Assembly (NCBI GenBank): GCA_029262315.1
Contig: JAJCZP010000119.1
Location: 1-32,996, forward strand
Reading direction: 5' to 3'
DNA: 32,996 nt
Source of the DNA: Deltaproteobacteria bacterium
GTDB taxonomy: Bacteria; Desulfobacterota; Binatia; UTPRO1
The position numbers and the translations under genes were made by a program. This document shows, one piece after another, positions 15,593 through 31,916 of the stretch. Numbering within the stretch: position 1 is the first letter of the stretch; every line of letters begins with the position of its first letter. The notes under the pieces were generated by a model. That model had not been told where the DNA came from and did not search any database. It saw only the letters and a list, made by a program, of their open reading frames with translations.

Positions 15593-15658
15593 ATCGGGAT
15601 TCATAAGTCGTTATAGGACAGGTGTTTATCGGTCGTTTTACAGGTGAGCGCCAGCGGG

Positions 15659-15674
15659 TGTTCCACGTGGAACA
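15659..15674. promoter_or_regulatory. parS-like centromere palindrome
   Basis: TGTTCCACGTGGAACA is a perfect 16-base palindrome and an exact match to the bacterial parS consensus TGTTNCACGTGNAACA bound by chromosomal ParB. It lies in noncoding DNA just before the tRNA promoter. Only one copy is seen in this window. The protein coded at 18555 has a ParB-type N-terminal domain but no visible helix-turn-helix, so the likely binder would be a host or distant ParB. Confidence 0.75.
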
Positions 15675-15679
15675 TATCC

Positions 15680-15708
15680 TTGCGTGGTGTCGTATCCGAT
15701 GGTATGGT
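15680..15708 (+). promoter_or_regulatory. Promoter of the tRNA cluster
   Basis: TTGCGT (15680-15685) and TATGGT (15703-15708) are 17 bases apart. The tRNA-Met begins 11 bases after the -10, as expected for a tRNA transcript with a short 5' leader. Confidence 0.5.
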
Positions 15709-15718
15709 TTGCTCGTTC

Positions 15719-15792
15719 GGCGGGGTGGAGCAGTTTGGAAGCTCGCCAGGCTCATAACCTGGAGGTCGCTGGTTCAAATCCAGCCCCCGCTA
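15719..15792 (+). tRNA. tRNA-Met (CAT), initiator-like features
   Basis: It folds as a normal 74-nt cloverleaf: acceptor GGCGGGG (15719-15725) with CCCCGCT (15785-15791), anticodon stem CCAGG/CCTGG around CTCATAA (anticodon CAT at 15753-15755), T arm GCTGG-TTCAAAT-CCAGC (15768-15784). The first acceptor pair is G-T rather than Watson-Crick. The D-arm sequence TGGAGCAG...AGCTCG resembles initiator tRNA, but the three G-C pairs typical of initiator anticodon stems are not complete. No CCA is encoded. Confidence 0.85.
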
Positions 15793-15800
15793 TTGAGATT

Positions 15801-15905
15801 GACCGGGTCCGCTGGCGCGGCTCCGTCGGACGATCCAGACGCTGTCTGGTGGGCCTGAAACTTCCGACGTCATGGATGAGGGTGGTTCGAGTCCACCCCC
15901 GGTAT
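15801..15905 (+). tRNA. Atypical tRNA-like element, 105 nt
   Basis: It starts eight bases after the tRNA-Met. A canonical T arm (GGTGG-TTCGAGT-CCACC, 15881-15897) is followed by CCCGGTA, which pairs with GACCGGG at 15801-15807 in six of seven positions (first pair G-A). Between them are a GTCCG/CGGAC stem (15807-15811/15827-15831) with a 15-base loop and a perfect CCAGAC-GCT-GTCTGG hairpin (15835-15849). About 30 further bases precede the T arm. It is longer than any normal tRNA and the amino acid cannot be assigned. Confidence 0.4.
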
Positions 15906-15907
15906 TT

Positions 15908-15983
15908 GAGAGATTCCTTTTGGACGTGGCCGGGATTTCACGAGGGCGATGCCGGACCCGGACGTGCTCGCCCTGATCTCTCA
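15908..15983 (+). ncRNA. tRNA-sized folded element without a T arm
   Basis: GAGAGAT (15908-15914) and ATCTCTC (15976-15982) form a perfect seven-base acceptor-like stem 75 nt apart, the size of a tRNA. Inside are two arms, CGTG/CACG (15925-15928/15939-15942) and AGGGCGA/TCGCCCT (15943-15949/15968-15974), giving a three-way junction. No TTCRA T-loop is present, so it is not a standard tRNA. It lies two bases after the preceding tRNA-like element. Confidence 0.4.
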
Positions 15984-16095
15984 CGGAGTTCCCCGTGTCC
16001 GCGCTCTGGCAATGCCAGGTGACGGGCGGGGCCGCGGGCCCTGGCGCTGGGCGACTGGCGTTGGGGTGTTTACAGATAGGTTTTTGCCATAGGGA

Positions 16096-16137
16096 GGACG
16101 CCCTTTTGCATCGAGTCGCTCACTCGAGAAAGCGTCC
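16096..16137 (+). ncRNA. Nested stem-loop in the noncoding region
   Basis: GGACGC (16096-16101) pairs with GCGTCC (16132-16137) and encloses TCGAGT (16111-16116) paired with ACTCGA (16122-16127) around loop CGCTC. Both stems are perfect. It lies in DNA with no protein gene and is one of several strong stems between 15905 and 16288, suggesting a structured RNA. Confidence 0.35.
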
Positions 16138-16288
16138 AATGAGCGTTGCCTTCAGTCGCGTGAAGCGCCTGCTGGCATTTGGACCGATTCTGACCCCGGT
16201 CGGGTGATATCCAGCGTGGCTTTGCTCGCGTGTTCGTGTTTCTGTTTCTCCAGTTAAACTGCATGCTGGCGGCTCGTAGGGGTAGTTT

Positions 16289-16410
16289 GGGGAGCGTCGT
16301 AGGCTGGGTACTACGGCACGGTGTGGGCATGTTGCCCACTCGAGACATCGTGTGCTGGCATGGGGTTGATCACCATGTTCGGCTAGTTGGTTCAAATCCA
16401 ACACTCCCCA
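16289..16410 (+). tRNA. Atypical tRNA-like element, 122 nt
   Basis: T arm GTTGG-TTCAAAT-CCAAC (16386-16402) leads into ACTCCCC (16403-16409), pairing with GGGGAGC (16289-16295) in six of seven positions. A normal-looking D arm CGTAG-GCTGGGTA-CTACG (16298-16315) follows the acceptor. The anticodon-position stem CACGG/TCGTG (16317-16321/16348-16352) encloses 26 bases instead of seven, with a perfect hairpin GTGGGCA-TGT-TGCCCAC. A variable-arm-like stem CATGG/CCATG (16359-16363/16373-16377) comes before the T arm. This looks like a class II tRNA with an insertion in the anticodon loop; identity unclear. Confidence 0.4.
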
Positions 16411-16415
16411 TTTTT

Positions 16416-16545
16416 GATCGTGTGGCCGAGATATCCGGTTGGCTCCGGTTCAGGACGAAGGCGCCCCGGGAGTTAATAGCCCGCAGTCAGGGGATCGGTG
16501 GTCCATGAGCTACGCCGATCGTGGGTTCGAATCCCACCGCGATCG
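16416..16545 (+). tRNA. Atypical class II tRNA-like element, 130 nt (possible Leu-TAA)
   Basis: Acceptor GATCGTG (16416-16422) pairs with CGCGATC (16538-16544) in all seven positions (one T-G). TGGCCGAG follows, the class II tRNA consensus for positions 8-15, and GAAGGC ends the D arm, but the D loop is about 30 bases with an internal CCGG/CCGG stem. An anticodon-like arm CGGG/CCCG (16467-16470/16480-16483) encloses AGTTAATAG, so TAA is the best anticodon guess. A long variable arm GATCGG/CCGATC touches the T arm GTGGG-TTCGAAT-CCCAC (16521-16537). A GGCC-TTCG-GGCC hairpin follows. Confidence 0.45.
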
Positions 16546-16687
16546 TTGGCCTTCGGGCCGTGATATCTGGTCCCCGCGTACTGCATGATGCGGCGGGAAA
16601 GAGAGACCGCGCTTTGGATGAAGCATCATGGTCCCGGGCAGGGCGACGGCTCTGTCAACGGGGTTTTCTCAACGAGGAGGATTTCAC

Positions 16688-17233
16688 ATGCGGTTTTCAA
16701 TTGGCGAAGAGCTTGGCTACCTGGCCGAGTATGTAGAACTCGACGGTGTGCGCGTATTCGTTCAGTCTCTGGATGTTGTCGAGCGATGGGTAGATGCATA
16801 TGTGCATGCGACGGAGGATCGACCGTTGCGACCTGACGATAAATGTCCGAGACGCTTGGATGCAAACTTCGAGCCAGTAATTCGACGCTACGAAGGCGAG
16901 GTCGCGGTGGCGTTTAGATCAGCAGCAGTTATATCAAGAGATCCGATGCGCCCGATTTGGCACGGCTGTTGCACATTTTGGACAGATGAATCGAACAGAC
17001 TCGACAAATCGGAAGGCGATCCTGTTTGTCCGACGTGTGGCTCGCCTGTATTTGAGACGACGTCGGAAGAGTGGTTTGATCTCATCGACACTTACGAGAA
17101 AGACCGTCCTGGCTATGAGAATTTCATGCTGTCTGGTCCAGGCAGGAAGAACCTTTGCCGTGGACGTGGATTTCCCACTGATCGAGTTTGGAAAGAATAC
17201 GTTGAATCAGCAGCAAAGAAAGTTGATTCATGA
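16688..17233 (+). CDS. Zinc-ribbon protein, first of two tandem paralogues (181 aa)
   Basis: ATG 16688 follows GAGGAGG. The N-terminal half (MRFSIGEELGYLAEYVELDG...) is unique to this copy. The C-terminal half holds IWHGCCTFWTDE, CPTCGSPVFETT and SGPGRKNLCRGRGF, giving cysteines in CC, CxxC and a final C, a likely zinc site. That half is repeated, in order and spacing, in the next gene (17230), so the pair arose by tandem duplication with the N-terminal part lost or gained. No enzyme motif is recognised. It is the first gene after the tRNA region. Confidence 0.55.
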   Translation: MRFSIGEELGYLAEYVELDGVRVFVQSLDVVERWVDAYVHATEDRPLRPDDKCPRRLDANFEPVIRRYEGEVAVAFRSAAVISRDPMRPIWHGCCTFWTDESNRLDKSEGDPVCPTCGSPVFETTSEEWFDLIDTYEKDRPGYENFMLSGPGRKNLCRGRGFPTDRVWKEYVESAAKKVDS

Positions 17234-17547
17234 CTGCGAAGTATCAACGCATGAACGGATCGGTTTGCAGCGGCGCAACCGATCCGATGCGCATGATTTG
17301 GTACAGCAGCTGCACATTCTGGACAGATGAATTGGACATACTGGACACGTCGCGCGGCGTTCCTCTTTGTCCGCTGTGTGGCTCGCCAGGATTTCAGACG
17401 ACGGCGGAGGCATGGTTCGGCGGCATCGCTTCGCATGACAAAGACACTCCGGGCTATGAAACTTTCATGCTGACCGGGCCCGGCAGGAAGAATGTCTGCA
17501 ATGGTCGCGGTTTTTCGACTGGTGAATTGTGGGATCAACACGTGTGA
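17230..17547 (+). CDS. Zinc-ribbon protein, second tandem paralogue (105 aa)
   Basis: The start overlaps the previous stop (ATGA). The sequence follows the C-terminal half of the preceding protein nearly throughout: IWYSSCTFWTDE, CPLCGSPGFQTT, TGPGRKNVCNGRGF and a final WDQHV for WKEYV. It lacks the long N-terminal half. Conservation of the cysteines and of the GPGRKN.C.GRGF block points to a maintained fold, probably zinc-stabilised. The role is unknown; a dosage or specialised pair is possible. Confidence 0.55.
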   Translation: MTAKYQRMNGSVCSGATDPMRMIWYSSCTFWTDELDILDTSRGVPLCPLCGSPGFQTTAEAWFGGIASHDKDTPGYETFMLTGPGRKNVCNGRGFSTGELWDQHV

Positions 17548-18554: not shown

Positions 18555-19940
18555 ATGACGGAGTCTTCCACCGATCGACTGGAGGTGATCTACCGGTCGA
18601 TAGAGGAGCTTACCCCCTACGGGGCCAACGCCCGTACCCATACCGATCATCAGATCAGCCAGGTCATGGCTTCGATCAACGAGTTCGGATGGACCAATCC
18701 GATCCTGCTCCGTGATGATTCCTCGCTGGTGGCGGGTCATGCGCGTCTGGAGGCGGCCAAGCGTCTCGGCTTGACCGAGGTGCCCACGATATCCCTGGCC
18801 AATCTCACCGAGGACCAGGCCCGGGCCTACGTCATCGCCGATAACCAGCTTGCGACCAATGCCGGCTGGGACGAGGCGATTCTTGCCGGCGAGCTTGTCG
18901 CGCTGCAGGAGGCTGGGTTCAACATCGACGTTGTCGGGTTCTCCGATCAGGACATTGCTGCTCTGCTCGCCCCGCGGGATGAGGAGGGCTTCACGGACCC
19001 TGACGACGCTCCGCCGCTGCAGGACGACCCAATCTCCAAGGTTGGCGACGTGTGGCTGCTGGGCTCTCACCGCCTGGTGTGTGGCGACTGCACGGTGCCC
19101 GAGTTCGTCGATCACTGTCTGGACGGCGCCCGGCCCAATCTCATGGTTACGGACCCGCCCTATGGGGTGAATTACGATCCATCGCATCGCGTGCGTTCCG
19201 GCCTCGCCAAGCGCGGGCAGGTGGCCGAGGGAAAGGTCATGAACGACGATCGCGCGGACTGGCGCGAGGCGTGGGTGCTCTTTCCTGGCATCGTTGCCTA
19301 CGTCTGGCACGCGGGCACCAAGGCTCACATCGTCTCGGATTCGCTCGAGAGCGTGGGGTTCGACATCCGGTCGCAGATTGTTTGGGTGAAGAACCGGTTC
19401 GCCATCAGCCGCGGGCACTACCACGTCCAGCACGAGCCGTGCTTCGAGGCGGGCAAGGATGCCGACTACGAGCACGAGACGGCTCAGTACGCCTGCCGCT
19501 CTGGTGAGGCGGCTTCGTGGGCTGGCGATCGCAAGCAGTCGACGGTGTGGTTCATTGCGCACCGCGCGAACGACACGGGGCATGGCACGCAGAAACCGGT
19601 CGAGTGCATGGAGCGCCCGATTCGTAACAACTCTTCGCCTGGCCAGGGTGTGTACGACCCGTTTTGCGGATCGGGCACCACGATCATCGCTTGTCAGCGG
19701 ACGGGGCGCGTCTGCTATGCGATCGAGCTTGACGAAAGATATGTCGATGTGATCGTGCGTCGCTGGGAGGCGTATACGCGTAAGTCCGCTGTTCTTGAGG
19801 AGACCGGACAGACCTTTGCAGATGTGGTGCGGTCTTCTGAAAAACGAAAGGGAGATGCCGCGGTTACCAAACCTGAATCCGAAAGCAAAGCGAAGGGCGC
19901 ATTGAAGAAGAAGTCGAGGAAGAAGGTGAGCAAGAAATGA
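18555..19940 (+). CDS. ParB-domain / DNA adenine methyltransferase fusion
   Basis: The N-terminal 100 residues are a ParB/Srx-type domain: PYGANARTHTDHQISQVMAS, then the nucleotide-binding box VAGHARLEAAKRLG (about 74-87). The C-terminal part is an N6-adenine or N4-cytosine DNA methyltransferase. It has the catalytic DPPYG motif (about residues 200-204) and, near the end, the SAM-binding block YDPFCGSGTT (about 369-378), the reversed order of the beta class. A lysine-rich tail ends it. No restriction partner is seen, so it probably protects phage DNA or marks it. The leader holds a tandem hairpin element. Confidence 0.9.
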   Translation: MTESSTDRLEVIYRSIEELTPYGANARTHTDHQISQVMASINEFGWTNPILLRDDSSLVAGHARLEAAKRLGLTEVPTISLANLTEDQARAYVIADNQLATNAGWDEAILAGELVALQEAGFNIDVVGFSDQDIAALLAPRDEEGFTDPDDAPPLQDDPISKVGDVWLLGSHRLVCGDCTVPEFVDHCLDGARPNLMVTDPPYGVNYDPSHRVRSGLAKRGQVAEGKVMNDDRADWREAWVLFPGIVAYVWHAGTKAHIVSDSLESVGFDIRSQIVWVKNRFAISRGHYHVQHEPCFEAGKDADYEHETAQYACRSGEAASWAGDRKQSTVWFIAHRANDTGHGTQKPVECMERPIRNNSSPGQGVYDPFCGSGTTIIACQRTGRVCYAIELDERYVDVIVRRWEAYTRKSAVLEETGQTFADVVRSSEKRKGDAAVTKPESESKAKGALKKKSRKKVSKK

Positions 19941-21222: not shown

Positions 21223-21618
21223 ATGTCATCGCCAGTCTCCATATCTCCTATCCGGCTGCGCCGGGATCGCAGCCTCGGATGGAGGAAGCCCGCGGGGTCT
21301 GTCATCGTGGATCGGACATCGCGGTGGGGCAATCCGTGGGGATGGGTTCTCTGTCCTGAGAGCCGGACCTGGTATGTCTGCCGCGCCCGCTCCAAGCGTC
21401 GCACCGGTCACTGGCGAGGTAATCCCCAAGCGGCACAGCGGGCGGCTGTGGCTTATTTCTGTCGCTGGTTGACCCTGACACCTTCGGGACGCGCGTTGGC
21501 TACTCGGGCCCGAGAGCAGCTTCAGGGCTATGACCTGGTCTGCTGGTGTTTTCCAGACGATGCCTGTCATGCGGATGTCTTGCTCGAGGTCGCAAATGCC
21601 GAAGAGGAGGCATCATGA
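21223..21618 (+). CDS. DUF4326 family protein
   Basis: The protein has the DUF4326 pattern: RLRRDRSLGWRKPAGSVIV then DRTSRWGNPWGW near the N-terminus, a helix with FCRWL (about residue 80), and LQGYDLVCWCFPDDACHADVLLELA-type ending (here LQGYDLVCWCFPDDACHADVLLEVA). The conserved R.SRWGNP and the CWC...CHAD cysteine/histidine cluster near the end define the family. It is a small single-domain protein, common in phages, of unknown biochemistry. Its stop overlaps the deformylase start region. Confidence 0.85.
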   Translation: MSSPVSISPIRLRRDRSLGWRKPAGSVIVDRTSRWGNPWGWVLCPESRTWYVCRARSKRRTGHWRGNPQAAQRAAVAYFCRWLTLTPSGRALATRAREQLQGYDLVCWCFPDDACHADVLLEVANAEEEAS

Positions 21619-22094
21619 ACATCCCCCCGCTGAACGAGCTTCATATTCATGAGTCGCCGGCCTTGCGGGCGATCGCGGAGACGTTCGACGTGACGAGTGC
21701 GCTGGTTCCATCTTTGGCGTTCCGCATGGTGGAGTTGGCACGAGAAGCTGATGGGATCGGATTGGCTGGTCCCCAGATCGGCCTTCCATACCGCGTCATC
21801 GTTTGCAAGCTTCAAGAGCAATGGTCTTTCCTCATGAATCCTCGGATCGTGTGGATATCTCACCATCGTGTGGGGGCGGCTGAAGGGTGCCTGAGTCTCC
21901 CTGGGATCAAAGTGAATGTTGTCAGGCCATGCGCCGTGAGGGTTGCCCACACGATGGCCGATCGCTCCATTCGTTCGATTGAAGCATGCGATTTGGCTGC
22001 GAGGGTGCTGCAGCACGAGATCGACCACCTGGACGGGATTCTGATCACGGATCGAGGGCTCAGCGGGGGGATTGAACCAGTTGGGGGTGGATGA
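21615..22094 (+). CDS. def: Peptide deformylase
   Basis: All three deformylase motifs are intact: GIGLAGPQIG (motif I, about 51-60), EGCLSLPG (motif II, cysteine ligand, about 95-102) and LQHEIDHLDG (motif III, two histidine ligands and catalytic glutamate, about 135-144). The enzyme removes the formyl group from new proteins using a metal ion. At 159 residues it is slightly short, lacking a long C-terminal helix, as in several phage and organellar deformylases. ATG 21615 has GAGGAGGC before it. It sits in an operon with DUF4326 and a zinc-ribbon membrane protein. Confidence 0.95.
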   Translation: MNIPPLNELHIHESPALRAIAETFDVTSALVPSLAFRMVELAREADGIGLAGPQIGLPYRVIVCKLQEQWSFLMNPRIVWISHHRVGAAEGCLSLPGIKVNVVRPCAVRVAHTMADRSIRSIEACDLAARVLQHEIDHLDGILITDRGLSGGIEPVGGG

Positions 22095-25587: not shown

Positions 25588-27051
25588 ATGATTGCCCAAA
25601 ATGCTAAGCGCATCGCATGGAAGCCACAGGACGGCGCCCAGTTTCTATTCGTGACCTGCGACGTGTTCGAGTGTTTGATGCACGGCAATCGTGGCGGCGG
25701 CAAGTCGCTCGGGATGTTGATCGACTTTTGCCAACACGTCGGACCCATTCGCTTCCCTGGGCATCGAGCTAATTATGGCGCCGCCTGGCGTGGTGTTCTC
25801 TTTCGTAGGAACTACGAAGAGCTCCAGGACATGATCGCCAAGGCGCAGGAGTGGATTCCGAAGATATTCCCCGATGCGCGGTATGTCTCAAGCCCGAACC
25901 CGCAATACAACTTTGCAACTGGCGAGTCGCTTCTCTTCCGCTCGATCGAACGTCGCATCGATTTCCTCAAATATCAGGGACACGAGTATCCGTGGATCGG
26001 ATTTGAGGAGCTTACGAACTGGCCCGACGATTTCCTCTACCGCCAGATGATCAGCTGCTGTCGGTCATCCAAGCCTGGCATGCCGTTCAAGATTCGATCG
26101 ACGACGAACCCCTCTGGCCCTGGTCATAACTGGGTAAAGAAGCGGTTCCGGCTTCCCGGTCCTGCTGGTCAGCGGATTGGCTACCACATTCACAACATCG
26201 GCGAGGAGGCTCGGACATCAATCCGATCCGACATGGCCGAGAATATTGCGCTGCTCAAGGCGGTGCCGAATTATCGAGATCGCATCAAGATGGCCGCCAC
26301 CAGCATTGCCCAGGAGCGGGCCTGGCTGGATGGGGACTGGAATATCATCGCTGGGGGGATGTTCGACGACGTTTGGGTTCCAGAGGTTCATATCGTGCCC
26401 AGCTTTCCGATCCGTGCGATCCCGCGCGGATGGATGATCGATCGGGCCTATGACCACGGGTCCAGTAAGCCGTTCAGCGTCGGTTGGTACGCCCAATCCA
26501 ATGGCGAGCCGTTTGAATGGGATGGCCGCGTCATGGGAACGGTTCCTGGGGATGTCTTTCGCATTGCCGAGTGGTATGGCTCGCCTTCGCATTCGAATGA
26601 GGGCCTGCGGATGACGGCGCGTGCGATCGCGGATGGCATCATCGACCGAGAACAAGACCTGGGCCTCTGGGGTCACGTTCGTCCTGGCCCTGCCGACACG
26701 GAGATATTCTCTGCCAAGGAGCCTGGCCGGCCCAGCGTCCACCGTGAGTTTCAGACTGTGGGCGTGTCATTCGTTCCCGCCGATAAGGGACCGGGCTCTC
26801 GCAAGCCCGGCTGGGAGTTGATGCGCCAGATGTTCAAGGGGGCGGTTGTTCCTCCGTCCGGTTATCGTGAAGACCCAGGCTTGTTCATTTGCGAGCGATG
26901 CGTCGATGCGATCGAGAAGATTGTTGCGCTCCCCCGCGATATGAAGGATCAGGACGACGTGGACACGGAGTCCGAGGATCACATCGGCGACGAGATGCGA
27001 TATCGGATAAGGCGCAAGGCGGTTGGCTCTACCACGGGCTCATGGAGGTGA
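25588..27051 (+). CDS. terL: Terminase large subunit
   Basis: This 487-residue protein carries the ATPase motor and nuclease of a packaging terminase. Walker A is HGNRGGGKS (about 32-40) and Walker B YPWIGFEEL (about 132-140); TTNPSGPGH (about 172-180) is the coupling motif. The C-terminal nuclease has its RNase H-type acidic residues in DRAYDHGSSKP (about 290-300), PADTEIF (about 369-375) and DHIGDEMRY (about 467-475). It starts at ATG 25588 with a weak ribosome binding site. The domain order is complete and undamaged. It feeds DNA into the portal made by the next gene. Confidence 0.9.
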   Translation: MIAQNAKRIAWKPQDGAQFLFVTCDVFECLMHGNRGGGKSLGMLIDFCQHVGPIRFPGHRANYGAAWRGVLFRRNYEELQDMIAKAQEWIPKIFPDARYVSSPNPQYNFATGESLLFRSIERRIDFLKYQGHEYPWIGFEELTNWPDDFLYRQMISCCRSSKPGMPFKIRSTTNPSGPGHNWVKKRFRLPGPAGQRIGYHIHNIGEEARTSIRSDMAENIALLKAVPNYRDRIKMAATSIAQERAWLDGDWNIIAGGMFDDVWVPEVHIVPSFPIRAIPRGWMIDRAYDHGSSKPFSVGWYAQSNGEPFEWDGRVMGTVPGDVFRIAEWYGSPSHSNEGLRMTARAIADGIIDREQDLGLWGHVRPGPADTEIFSAKEPGRPSVHREFQTVGVSFVPADKGPGSRKPGWELMRQMFKGAVVPPSGYREDPGLFICERCVDAIEKIVALPRDMKDQDDVDTESEDHIGDEMRYRIRRKAVGSTTGSWR

Positions 27052-27054
27052 TGC

Positions 27055-28668
27055 ATGGCTAAGAAGTCTGATCCCAGCAGGATTCCGTCCACCACCAGCA
27101 TGGCCTACGACAAGATGCTTCCGCGCTGGAATAAGATGGCTTCTGTGCTCGGAGGCACAGAGACCATGCGGGAGGCTGGCGCAGAGTTTTTGCCCCAGCA
27201 TGAGAAGGAAACAGATCAGGCTTGGCGCGAGCGCCTGGGTAGGAACACGCTATTCAACATGCTCCAGATCACGCTCGACTCTTTGGTCGGTCGTCCGTTC
27301 TCTGATCCTGTCGAGGTTTCCGATGATGTTCCCGATGACATGAAGCTGCTTTTGGAAGATGTTGATCTCCAGGGAAACAACATCGATGTGTTTGGGCGTG
27401 AGTGGTTTCGTGACGGGATGTCAAATGGATTCGCGGGCGTGCTCGTTGAGTTTCCGCGCACCAATATCACTCCCGATCGAACGCTCGAGGATGATATTCG
27501 TGAGGGTGTGCGCCCGTACTGGGTGGCAATCCCATCAGAGAACGTCATATTTGCGAACGCGAATATCATTGATGGGCATGAGATTCTGACTCACATACGT
27601 TTCCGCGAAGAGATCGTTGAGCAAGAAGGCTTTGCCGAAGTATCTCGCACTCGGATTCGTGTTCTCGATCTGATCGATGCTGGCATGCCGACCAGACTGC
27701 CGACTGGGTTTGTTCCGTTTGGTCTGAGGGGTGTAGAGACGATCGTTGAGAATGATGGCATGACGACGATGGCTTTCGATAAGTCGCGCGTTCAAGTGTC
27801 TATCTATCGAGAAGACCTAAAGGCTGACGAAGATTCAGAGGATCGATGGGTTTTGGACGAGGTCTTCTTTATGGAGATCGGCGTTATCCCATTTGCTGTT
27901 TTCTATGCAGAGCGTGATGGATTGATGCTCGCCAAGCCACCCTTGCTTGATTTGGCAGATTTGAATATCAGCTGGTGGCAATCCGCATCCGATCAACGCA
28001 TGGTGCTCACCGTTGCGCGGTTCCCAATCCTCGCTTCCAGCGGCGAGATCGATGAGGACAAGATCACTGTTGGTCCGAGCGCATGGCTCAACGTCAAAGA
28101 CCCGAATGGCAGCTGGTATTACGTCGAGCACTCCGGCGCTGCTATCGAGGCTGGTCGAGAAGATATGGCGTCGCTGGTTGAGCAGATGGCGGAGTACGGT
28201 GCTCAGTTTCTCAAGCGTCAGCCTGGCGATATGACCGCCACCGCGCGTGCGCTCGATTCTGCGGAGGCGACGTCGCCCCTTCAGGATATGTCTATTCGCT
28301 TCAATGACACGTTGAACGTCGCGTGGGGTTTCAGTGCAATGTGGCTTGGCCGCGACTCATCGGATATTGGATCGCTTGGCGTAGCAACCGACTTCGGCCC
28401 GGAGGAGATCAACTCTTCCGATGTTGCTGAGCTTGGGCAGGCGCGTCGAGGCCGCGACTTGTCTCGACCGAAATATCTGGCCGAGCTTCAGCGACGTGGC
28501 ACTCTGGGCGATGATTTTGATGCCGATGAGAACGAAAAAGAACTCGAGGACGAGCGGGCTGAGTTTGCGGACGGCGTCGCCAACTTGGACATCGATCCTG
28601 CGGGCGGTGATGATCCGCCTGATCCTGGGGCCCCGCCTGCTGAGAAGAATTCCGCTGCGGAGGAGTAA
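27055..28668 (+). CDS. Portal protein, DUF4055 type
   Basis: ATG 27055 follows GGAGGTGATGC. The 537-residue protein is of the usual portal length and has the DUF4055 pattern: an early YDKMLPRWNKMASVLGG helix, QAWRERLGRNTLFNMLQITLDSLVGRPFSDP, PYWVAIPSENVIFANANIIDG, and later EHSGAAIEAGREDMASLVEQMAEYG. The acidic C-terminal tail (from about 480) is disordered, as in other portals. The portal forms the ring at the head vertex through which DNA is packed. Followed by the MuF-type head protein. Confidence 0.85.
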   Translation: MAKKSDPSRIPSTTSMAYDKMLPRWNKMASVLGGTETMREAGAEFLPQHEKETDQAWRERLGRNTLFNMLQITLDSLVGRPFSDPVEVSDDVPDDMKLLLEDVDLQGNNIDVFGREWFRDGMSNGFAGVLVEFPRTNITPDRTLEDDIREGVRPYWVAIPSENVIFANANIIDGHEILTHIRFREEIVEQEGFAEVSRTRIRVLDLIDAGMPTRLPTGFVPFGLRGVETIVENDGMTTMAFDKSRVQVSIYREDLKADEDSEDRWVLDEVFFMEIGVIPFAVFYAERDGLMLAKPPLLDLADLNISWWQSASDQRMVLTVARFPILASSGEIDEDKITVGPSAWLNVKDPNGSWYYVEHSGAAIEAGREDMASLVEQMAEYGAQFLKRQPGDMTATARALDSAEATSPLQDMSIRFNDTLNVAWGFSAMWLGRDSSDIGSLGVATDFGPEEINSSDVAELGQARRGRDLSRPKYLAELQRRGTLGDDFDADENEKELEDERAEFADGVANLDIDPAGGDDPPDPGAPPAEKNSAAEE

Positions 28669-28671
28669 TCC

Positions 28672-29895
28672 GTGGCTGATCCGCGCCGTGACAAGCCGAA
28701 TGTGACAGGCAATCAGAAGCTGTTCGACGCCGCTCTGCGCCACCAGGTCGGCCTCATCCGGTTCACATCGGGAGAGGTCCGTCGCGTCGTCGATTTGCTC
28801 GAGGAGGCCGATCGCGACCTGGTCGGCATGCTTCGCAACCGGTTGGGCGATGTTAGCCGGGCCCCTACCGACTTCACGTCAGAGCGGTGGAAGCTGCTGC
28901 TGGCTGATATCAGGGTGGCTCGAGGGGAGGCGATGAGCAAGGTTCGTGGCGAGCTTTCCCCCACGCTCCGCGAGCTTTCGGTGATGGAGGCTGGTTTTGA
29001 GAAGCGGATCATCCAGGGGTCGATGCCGCTCTCGCTCGAGCTTGCCTCTGTTTCGTCCTCGAGCCTGCATGCGATCGTCACCACCCAGCCGTTCAACGGG
29101 AACCTGCTTGGCCAGTGGTACGGCACGCTTGCGTCGTCTGATAAGTCGAATCTCATTCGGACCATCCAGCTGGGGCTGACCGAGGGCTCTACGCTCGATC
29201 AAATCGTGCGTCGCGTCGCCGGCACCCGCTCCGAGGGGTTTTCCAACGGTGTGCTCGCCATAAACCGCCGCAACGCCGAGACTGTGGTCCGAACCGCGGT
29301 CAACGGCGTGGCCAACGCCGCTCGCAACGCCCTTTGGGTCGAGAACGCCGACTTAATATCGGCTCTGCGGTGGACAGCGACGCTGGATGGTCGGACAACT
29401 CCGGTCTGTCGGGCCCGCGATGGTCGCGTGGCTCCGGTAAGCCCCCAAGGGTCGATCCCGAAGGGCCAGCCGGCGTTGTCGCCATCGGGCGCTCGCCCTC
29501 CCGCTCACCCGGGTTGCCGCTCCGTCATGGTCGCGGTGGTCGACGGCATTGAGGCGGTTGGCACTCGCCCGTTCGTGAGGGACACCAGGACGCGCGGTGG
29601 CCGCGAGACCAACTTCCGCAAGGAGGCCCGTCGTTCGGGTCGTCCGATACAAGAGGTGCGGAAAGCGTGGGCGCAGCGTAATATCGGGTCGGTCCCAGCC
29701 GAGGTGACGTATCAGGACTGGCTCCGTCGCCAGCCTGTCTCATTCCAGGATGATGTTCTCGGACCTTCTTTTGGTAAGCTGTTCCGCGATGGTGGGCTGA
29801 CCTTGCCCAAATTCGTCGATGAAGCCGGCAAGCAGTTTACGCTCGCCCAGCTTCGAATAACAGAATCCGCGGCCTTCGCCGCCGCTGGGCTCTGA
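28672..29895 (+). CDS. MuF/SPP1 gp7-type head morphogenesis protein
   Basis: GTG 28672 follows GGAGGAG. The N-terminal two-thirds is helical. The MuF core is visible as NAETVVRTAVNGVANAARNALW (about 203-224) and LDGRTTPVCRARDGRV (about 238-253), with ARPPAHPGCRSVMVAV (about 272-287) supplying the conserved H/C residues. The C-terminus holds TYQDWLRRQPVSFQDDVLG, a motif of MuF-type proteins that recurs in the membrane protein at 17564. MuF proteins are minor head proteins that travel with the portal and may be injected with DNA. It lies in the expected place between portal and scaffold. Confidence 0.85.
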   Translation: MADPRRDKPNVTGNQKLFDAALRHQVGLIRFTSGEVRRVVDLLEEADRDLVGMLRNRLGDVSRAPTDFTSERWKLLLADIRVARGEAMSKVRGELSPTLRELSVMEAGFEKRIIQGSMPLSLELASVSSSSLHAIVTTQPFNGNLLGQWYGTLASSDKSNLIRTIQLGLTEGSTLDQIVRRVAGTRSEGFSNGVLAINRRNAETVVRTAVNGVANAARNALWVENADLISALRWTATLDGRTTPVCRARDGRVAPVSPQGSIPKGQPALSPSGARPPAHPGCRSVMVAVVDGIEAVGTRPFVRDTRTRGGRETNFRKEARRSGRPIQEVRKAWAQRNIGSVPAEVTYQDWLRRQPVSFQDDVLGPSFGKLFRDGGLTLPKFVDEAGKQFTLAQLRITESAAFAAAGL

Positions 29896-30947: not shown

Positions 30948-31916
30948 ATGCCCACCGTCACACTCGCGGAGTCCGCGAAGCTCGCACAGAATGAGCTAAT
31001 CGCGGGCGTCATTGAGAACGTCATCACTGTCAATCGAATGTTCGAGGTTCTGCCCTTTGACGGAATTTCTGGCAATGCTCTCGCATACAACCGTGAGAAT
31101 GCTCTCGGTCCTGTTGCCACCGCCGGCGTGGGCGATTCCGATGGCGCCATCGGCGCCGGAGCCACTGGCACCAACCAGGCGGAACGAGTTGCTGCAAAGA
31201 ACGCTGCAACATTCACGTCGGTTACTTCAAGCCTGACGACTATCCTCGGCGATGCCGAAGTGAACGGTCTGATCCAGGCTACGCGGTCCGACGATGGCAA
31301 TGATCAAACTGCGATCCAGATTGCGTCGAAGGCGAAGTCTGCTGGTCGCAAGTATCAGGATATGTTTATCAATGGCGACGGGACCAACTTCACGTTCCCT
31401 GGCCTTATCAGCTTGTGTGCTGCTGATCAGAGCGTGACTCCGGCCACCAATGGGCAGGTGCTGTCGTTTGACATCCTCGACGAACTCATGGATTTGGTTG
31501 TCGACAAGGATGGGCAGGTCGATTACTTCACAATGCATGCGCGAACGTTGCGATCCTACAACGCGCTCTTGCGCGGCCTTGGAGGCGCTTCGATTGGTGA
31601 CGTCGTTCAGCTTCCATCCGGTGCTGAGGTTCCTGCGTATCGTCAGGTTCCGATCTTCCGCAATGACTACATCCCACTTGACCAGACGCAGGGCTCTCTC
31701 ACCACTGGGACCACGATCTTCGCCGGCACGCTTGACGATGGCTCTCGCCAGCATGGGATCGCTGGCCTTACTGCTGCGAGCATGGCTGGTATCAACGTGG
31801 TTGATGTTGGCGAATCCGAGATCAAGGATGAGCACATCTGGCGCGTGAAGTGGTACTCTGGGCTTGCCGCGTTCTCGGAGAGGGGACTCGCCTGCGCCGC
31901 CGGCATGAGCAACTGA
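30948..31916 (+). CDS. Major capsid protein
   Basis: The 322-residue protein starts MPTVTLAESAKLAQNELIAGVIENVITVNRMFEVLPF. It has a long amphipathic N-terminal segment and then beta-rich P-domain sequence (NALAYNRENALGPVATAGV). A conserved-looking central part (SAGRKYQDMFINGDGTNFTFPGL; LDELMDLVVDKDGQVDYFTMHARTLRSYNALL) is seen, with an end (HIWRVKWYSGLAAFSERGLACAAGMSN) typical of HK97-fold capsid proteins of this size. Its place after the scaffold, its own promoter, long leader and a strong terminator right after it all fit the most abundant head protein. No frameshift or damage. Confidence 0.85.
   Translation: MPTVTLAESAKLAQNELIAGVIENVITVNRMFEVLPFDGISGNALAYNRENALGPVATAGVGDSDGAIGAGATGTNQAERVAAKNAATFTSVTSSLTTILGDAEVNGLIQATRSDDGNDQTAIQIASKAKSAGRKYQDMFINGDGTNFTFPGLISLCAADQSVTPATNGQVLSFDILDELMDLVVDKDGQVDYFTMHARTLRSYNALLRGLGGASIGDVVQLPSGAEVPAYRQVPIFRNDYIPLDQTQGSLTTGTTIFAGTLDDGSRQHGIAGLTAASMAGINVVDVGESEIKDEHIWRVKWYSGLAAFSERGLACAAGMSN

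Follow-up and report, generated by a model that had tools for sequence, protein, structure and literature searches.

Oversized and Interrupted tRNAs in Phages

Introns in phage tRNA genes were described in the Lak megaphages as 'enigmatic' and, to the knowledge of the authors, as the first in phages (Devoto et al., 2019; PMC6784885), and a later Lak paper restates the presence of introns in Lak tRNAs (PMC8346664). A further paper (PMC7886860) is concerned with self-splicing introns in protein genes and with suppressor tRNAs. Charging with serine is independent of the anticodon, and E. coli tRNA-Leu variants lacking the anticodon arm stay active (PMC9976931). Among the papers listed by literature searches, none dealt with phage tRNAs expanded by hairpins. 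The three elements described below (E1–E3) are tRNA-derived as far as the tests reach, recur in a phage clade and are not explained by a simple intron; they exemplify a broader group of phage tRNAs, oversized or interrupted, that is poorly understood.

The Phage Contig and Its tRNA Region

The window, by which we mean the whole stretch of DNA that was analysed, is an entire contig (C119; 32,996 bases) of a 5.9 Mb genome assembly and encodes a tailed phage. A tRNA-Met of normal size and E1–E3 occupy a stretch without an evident gene.

15719–15792, + strand: tRNA-Met(CAT), normal size, initiator-like (ARAGORN; Rfam, 66.4 bits)
15801–15905, + strand: E1, oversized tRNA-like element (acceptor 15802–15807/15898–15903; T arm 15881–15897)
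16289–16410, + strand: E2, oversized tRNA resembling host tRNA-Ser(CGA) (host alignment; fold stability)
16416–16545, + strand: E3, oversized tRNA; D and T arms serine-like, acceptor 7/7 (Rfam tRNA, 28.1 bits; host alignment)
25588–27051: terminase
27055–28668: portal
28672–29895: head morphogenesis protein
30948–31916: major head protein

An earlier note on this DNA had placed elements of 105, 122 and 130 nt after a normal tRNA-Met, and these coordinates and lengths are correct. In the host assembly, 43 tRNAs were found besides those of the window, all of 72–92 nt, with CCA encoded in 11 of the 43; since these host tRNAs are of normal size, oversized elements are, on the evidence of the assembly, particular to the phage. 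A sigma-70-like promoter was not found, and the search for terminator-like hairpins gave one, compared with 1.5 in shuffles.

The relatives nearest by terminase in IMG/VR are L001 (72% identity), L002 and the short L003 (67%), and L004 (62%), and a further relative, L092, was recovered via the protein encoded upstream of tRNA-Met. That protein was found on four phage contigs and on a contig of a Phycisphaerales MAG (L096), on which ARAGORN sees no tRNA; searched against two overlapping sets of 58 and 395 genomes, the protein matched only its own genome. When positions 15600–16700 were compared with named phages by BLAST, the records listed (20 of 904) matched the tRNA-Met stretch only.

Several features of the surroundings may be recorded here. 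A peptide deformylase (PF01327, E 9.5e-33) is encoded at 21546–22094 of the same phage as the initiator-like tRNA-Met, and protein starts are the site of action of both. Directly after the tRNA region, 16628–17233 and 17230–17547 encode small proteins that are tandem paralogs (60% identity over 90 aa) and have no Pfam match up to E 0.01. Between E1 and E2, inverted repeats are seen by eye at 15908–15978 (AGAGAT...ATCTCT enclosing AGGGCGA...TCGCCCT) and at 16103–16139 (GGACGC...GCGTCC), which are possibly more structured RNA. The frame at 18555–19940 matches a ParB-like nuclease family in its N-terminal part and also has a match to a DNA methyltransferase (phrog_498); among the 80 loci of a methyltransferase search, oversized elements, judged on T arm and acceptor, were found only on contigs already known.

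tRNA-Like Ends of the Elements

Each of E1–E3 has the canonical T arm that the note had reported, i.e., a 5-bp T stem and a tRNA T loop. Strict T arms, defined as GGTTCRANYCC closed by a 5-bp stem, occur four times in the window (tRNA-Met and E1–E3), compared with a mean of 0.025 per dinucleotide shuffle (40 shuffles), and all four are accompanied by at least six Watson–Crick acceptor pairs at a span of 60–150 nt, compared with none in the shuffles. If any TTCRANY loop with an acceptor is counted, shuffles contain 0.1 per window. A matching acceptor had also been claimed and is present in all three elements, but it is fully paired only in E3 (7/7, including one G.U): that of E1 has 6 bp with a G.A mismatch at position 1, and that of E2 has 6/7 pairs with a C.A adjoining the T stem. 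The extra length indeed lies at a different site in each, namely in the interval between acceptor and T arm in E1, in the anticodon arm in E2 and in the D loop in E3, and additionally in the variable arm in both E2 and E3.

ARAGORN reported the tRNA-Met of the window and none of E1–E3. By the Rfam tRNA model (RF00005), E3 scores just below the cut-off of 29 bits, and E1 and E2 are not reported. The window contains no tmRNA call by ARAGORN, and the tRNA-Sec model (RF01852) reached 14.5 bits (E 7.1; cut-off 47) on part of E2. Rfam intron models (group I or other) gave no match up to E 10 in 15600–16700.

E2 and E3 Compared With Host tRNA-Ser

The interiors of the elements were aligned with all 43 host tRNAs and evaluated against 500 shuffles. 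E2 aligns best with tRNA-Ser(CGA) (2/500 shuffles), the large gaps corresponding to hairpins of 17 and 18 nt, and E3 aligns best with tRNA-Ser(TGA) (7/500), the large gaps again holding hairpins. For E1, likeness to the 43 host tRNAs is not significant (274/500). This test has little power, because the normal tRNA-Met itself reaches only 6/500. With the ends included, the values are 0 (E2), 1 (E3) and 35 (E1) of 100 shuffles. The link of E2 and E3 with tRNA-Ser is therefore suggestive and short of proof, since six oversized elements were tried.

16321–16337, + strand: E2 insert 1, 17-nt hairpin in the 5′ strand of the anticodon stem (alignment gap relative to tRNA-Ser(CGA))
16341–16343, + strand: E2 candidate anticodon CGA
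16360–16377, + strand: E2 insert 2, 18-nt hairpin in the variable arm (alignment gap relative to tRNA-Ser(CGA))
16428–16459, + strand: E3 enlarged D loop, 32 nt, CCGG-TTGGCT-CCGG (sequence; alignment gaps relative to tRNA-Ser(TGA))
16467–16483, + strand: E3 candidate anticodon arm, four Watson–Crick pairs and an A.G mismatch (by eye)
16493–16520, + strand: E3 variable arm, 8-bp stem 16493–16500/16513–16520 (by eye)

E2 matches tRNA-Ser(CGA) in the letters of the D stem and the anticodon arm (CGT, ACGGCACG, ACTCGA, ATCGTGTG). E2 folds with a z score of -3.68, and 0/200 shuffles are as stable; its anticodon loop has 9 nt, and position 73 is A73, compared with the G73 of serine tRNAs. The candidate anticodon arm of E3, drawn by eye, has a 7-nt loop (GTTAATA) with UAA as the candidate anticodon, and the fold of E3 is no better than that of shuffles (65/200; more stable than 135/200). 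In codon usage taken from uncurated open frames (minimum length 100 and 120 aa), the codon UUA, corresponding to the candidate anticodon of E3, is enriched 2.8-fold in the phage relative to the host, which is the top enrichment among the codons compared, and UCG, the codon for E2, is unenriched (0.8-fold).

E1 and Its Ortholog

E1 contains an inner stem-loop, which was delimited by aligning E1 by hand with an element of L001 (3608–3719), its single ortholog; neither E2 nor E3 has an ortholog.

15825–15868, + strand: E1 inner stem-loop (hand alignment with the L001 element)
15825–15830/15863–15868, + strand: P1, GTCGGA/TCCGAC
15835–15839/15845–15849, + strand: P2, CCAGA/TCTGG
15850–15862, + strand: 13-nt linker with TGGGCC

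The two elements have in common, in this order, GTCG.ACGA, CCAGA, TCTGG, TGGGCC..AA and T.CGACG. In the hand alignment, of which MAFFT aligns the middle otherwise, 22 pairs were compared (acceptor without position 1, T stem, P1 and P2): 17 are unchanged, five are changed on both sides, none is changed on one side and none is broken. Changes of the compensatory kind for which the earlier note had proposed to look among relatives are seen in 5/22 pairs of this one ortholog, and the free drift of acceptor and T stems that it had named as evidence against its reading is absent from this single hand-aligned pair. The comparison supports the maintenance of pairing in E1 and its one ortholog. In free folds, P1 is missing from E1, and the L001 element has P1 and lacks P2 as drawn; the fold of E1 is more stable than those of 186/200 shuffles. 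A pattern made from the E1 core found 22 stretches in IMG/VR, in which the sole E1 homolog (L234) is the already known L001 contig, and 10 of the 22 have an acceptor of 6–7 pairs at the normal tRNA span of 64–72 nt.

Oversized Elements in Relatives and Other Phages

Near the place of tRNA-Met, an oversized element with a 7/7 acceptor is present in three of four relatives (L001, L002, which is identical to L095, L004 and L092).

L001, 3608–3719: oversized element, 112 nt, acceptor 7/7
L092, 8451–8570: oversized element, 120 nt, acceptor 7/7
L095, 7710–7853: oversized element, 144 nt, acceptor 7/7

The L095 element exceeds the Rfam tRNA cut-off (44.2 bits), with 79 nt replacing the 7-nt anticodon loop of the model; those of L001 and L092 do not exceed it. 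A tRNA-Met is present in 3/4 relatives, L095 having none. In L004, a tRNA-Met and a tRNA-Ser are accompanied by an unusual tRNA of 71 nt and by two T arms for which no 7-pair acceptor lies upstream. At 830–1100 of L004, two T arms with the 3′ acceptor strands CTTGACC and CCCCGCC have, by eye, exact 7-nt partners just downstream (GGTCAAG, ahead of a D arm, and GGCGGGG), an arrangement that resembles a circularly permuted tRNA; the second pair (GGCGGGG) might instead form a terminator-like hairpin. The contigs of relatives contain 16 T-arm motifs, five of which lie, by eye, within apparent coding sequence.

When the elements of relatives were aligned with the host tRNAs, their interiors gave 1 (L095), 37 (L001) and 71 (L092) of 500 shuffles and, with the ends included, 3 (L092), 21 (L001) and 77 (L095) of 100, so that the result for L095 is inconsistent between the two versions (1/500 and 77/100). 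Further elements, with ends included, gave 21 (a second one in L001), 51 (L004, 913–1064) and 0 (L004, 3571–3641) of 100, and 12 other oversized IMG/VR tRNAs gave no signal (42–197 of 200). Serine-type oversized tRNAs of 102–131 nt are also present on other phage contigs: a scan for serine-type D arms found 36 stretches, of which nine have a 7/7 acceptor (L438 among those being a partial tandem copy), and L465 (127 nt) has, by eye, hairpins in the anticodon region and variable arm, like E2.

Tests for Introns

The inserts could be small introns that are removed by an unknown splicing step to leave ordinary decoding tRNAs, a reading that we consider rather unlikely for E1–E3. The earlier note had offered degeneration, intron-like insertion and mimicry as options. 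Insertions are supported for E2 and E3 by the alignment with tRNA-Ser, but a single clean intron is not supported by the shuffle tests, in which one segment was cut out and the remainder was inspected for an anticodon arm of canonical form. When the variable region had to be short, shuffles equaled E2 in 64/400 and L092 in 62/400, and no solution exists for E3; when it could have any length, the values are 166 (E2), 175 (L092) and 38 (L095) of 400. A wider excision search gave 11 (E1), 16 (E2), 6 (E3), 14 (L001) and 10 (L092) of 60 shuffles. Simple introns are thus unsupported in E2 and E3, because removal of one segment restores no normal anticodon arm above chance; moreover, the extra length of E3 sits in the D loop and variable arm. 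Among the matches listed, ARAGORN with introns allowed read E2 as Ile(GAT), E3 as Leu(CAG), the second element of L001 as Arg(CCG), L092 as Ala(AGC) and L095 as Leu(CAA), none of which the shuffle tests support. L095 gives a weak signal for a cut other than the Leu(CAA) proposal (6/400 shuffles with a short variable region; 0/60 in the wider search), and this possible split arm in a relative favors introns.

Further points in favor of introns come from other phages, in which a precise class of split-anticodon-arm tRNAs exists.

L246–L325, L330–L331 and L366–L412 (IMG/VR), and L413–L416 (named phages): split-arm tRNA loci

In IMG/VR, a scan for a canonical D arm distant from the T arm gave at least 120 stretches, of which 80 were retained; these contain 81 matches, 36 with a 7/7 acceptor. 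Of 42 elements with at least six pairs, four were dropped for an inner T loop or a tandem tRNA; a tally from the shuffle test for a canonical arm (25/42 with 0/60 shuffles), in which six elements have no solution, was left out of account. Among the remaining 38 oversized tRNAs (from 80 of at least 120 stretches), excision yields a perfect 5-bp arm with U33 and purine 37 in 20, compared with 0.06 expected, and the cut falls after position 28 or 29 in 17, compared with 0.016 expected. In one family, a hairpin precedes ACAGCAA, and another has a GTTAC-like motif near the 3′ end of the insert. A scan for ACAGCAA found 60 stretches, in which 65 elements were read, 54 of them distinct; two of these have fewer than six acceptor pairs and were dropped. 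In 32 of the remaining 52, the arm is perfect once the insert is excised (no more than one G.U), compared with 0.32 expected. The inserts of this family are 37–57 nt long (median 46), with 12 different pair combinations at 27–28/42–43.

The same kind of tRNA is present in isolated jumbo phages (Cronobacter GAP32, Serratia BF, Pectobacterium CBB and Erwinia pEa_SNUABM), and in the four regions read, tRNAs of 114–127 nt are annotated as tRNA-Lys, tRNA-Phe or tRNA-OTHER. The halves of the split stem, drawn by eye, covary in GAP32, pEa_SNUABM_12 and pEa_SNUABM_50 (CG-AGC with GCTCG, CG-ACA with TGTCG and GG-GCA with TGCCC, the hyphen marking the split). Introns have been suggested for this class and for the Lak tRNAs (PMC6784885), and both speak for the intron reading; the ACAGCAA motif is absent from the sequences of E1–E3, which speaks against it.

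Interpretation

We hold with moderate confidence that E1–E3 are hairpin-expanded tRNA genes that have kept the acceptor and T arm, with E2 and E3 class II-like and potentially chargeable. The acceptor stem and T arm are the parts of a tRNA seen by RNase P, 3′ processing, CCA addition and EF-Tu. In phage tRNA genes whose loops and arms were enlarged by short hairpin inserts, the kept acceptor stem and T arm would serve the processing enzymes, CCA addition and EF-Tu, and anticodon-independent charging would allow class II tRNAs to bear such inserts. Since the serine and leucine synthetases need no anticodon, molecules of the E2 and E3 type could be charged despite an altered anticodon arm or D loop. 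E1–E3 are probably chargeable. They would be transcribed together with tRNA-Met, processed, charged and used in infected cells. If so, such hairpin-expanded tRNAs raise the question of how much enlargement still allows processing, charging and use.

It is distinctly less probable that E1–E3 are stable non-decoding tRNA-like RNAs, whose ends would provide for processing and protection and whose middle would act as a decoy (e.g., for anticodon nucleases) or regulator. The rebuilding of the anticodon region while the acceptor and T stems stay is consistent with such a role, as is the TGGGCC of the 13-nt linker common to E1 and its L001 ortholog, but neither a target nor a nuclease has been identified, and E2 and E3 retain candidate anticodons in tRNA-Ser-like arms. 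That E1–E3 are functionless, degenerating tRNA genes is improbable: E1 and E2 fail the tRNA models, the E3 fold is no better than shuffles and some T arms of L004 lack a matching acceptor on their upstream side, but the acceptor and T stems of all three are near-perfect and no pair of the 22 is broken between E1 and its ortholog (hand alignment).

Beyond the hairpin-expanded tRNA genes of this phage, it is conceivable, though unlikely in this general form, that phages widely carry tRNA genes interrupted by several kinds of small structured RNA inserts (inserts with an ACAGCAA core that split the anticodon arm; hairpins of the D loop, anticodon stem and variable arm), which would be removed or tolerated by a mechanism undescribed in bacteria, E1–E3 being the multi-hairpin class II version. 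Because standard tRNA finders miss genes such as E1–E3, phage tRNA counts are too low.

Comparison With Known Systems

E1–E3 look partly serine/leucine-like, and E2 and E3 are possible class II tRNAs (tRNA-Ser and tRNA-Leu), with a long variable arm in both and serine-like D and T arms in E3; for E1, the host alignment does not support a class II reading. E2 and E3 differ from class II tRNAs by extra hairpins in the D loop or anticodon stem, by A73 in E2 and by variable arms that exceed those of host tRNA-Ser in length.

Like the intron-containing tRNAs of Lak megaphages, E1–E3 are over-long, unclassified by standard bacterial prediction and provided with unexplained inserts (PMC6784885); going by the description of the Lak tRNAs, E1–E3 differ in having hairpins in several arms and no clean excision. 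The split-anticodon-arm tRNAs are, like E1–E3, oversized phage tRNAs with an intact acceptor and T arm, and they make the 'enigmatic' phage tRNA introns of 2019 testable in cultured phages. They are a class different from, and cleaner than, the elements of the window: unlike in E1–E3, a single insert of 37–57 nt, in many cases with ACAGCAA, sits at a constant position, and its excision leaves a perfect arm.
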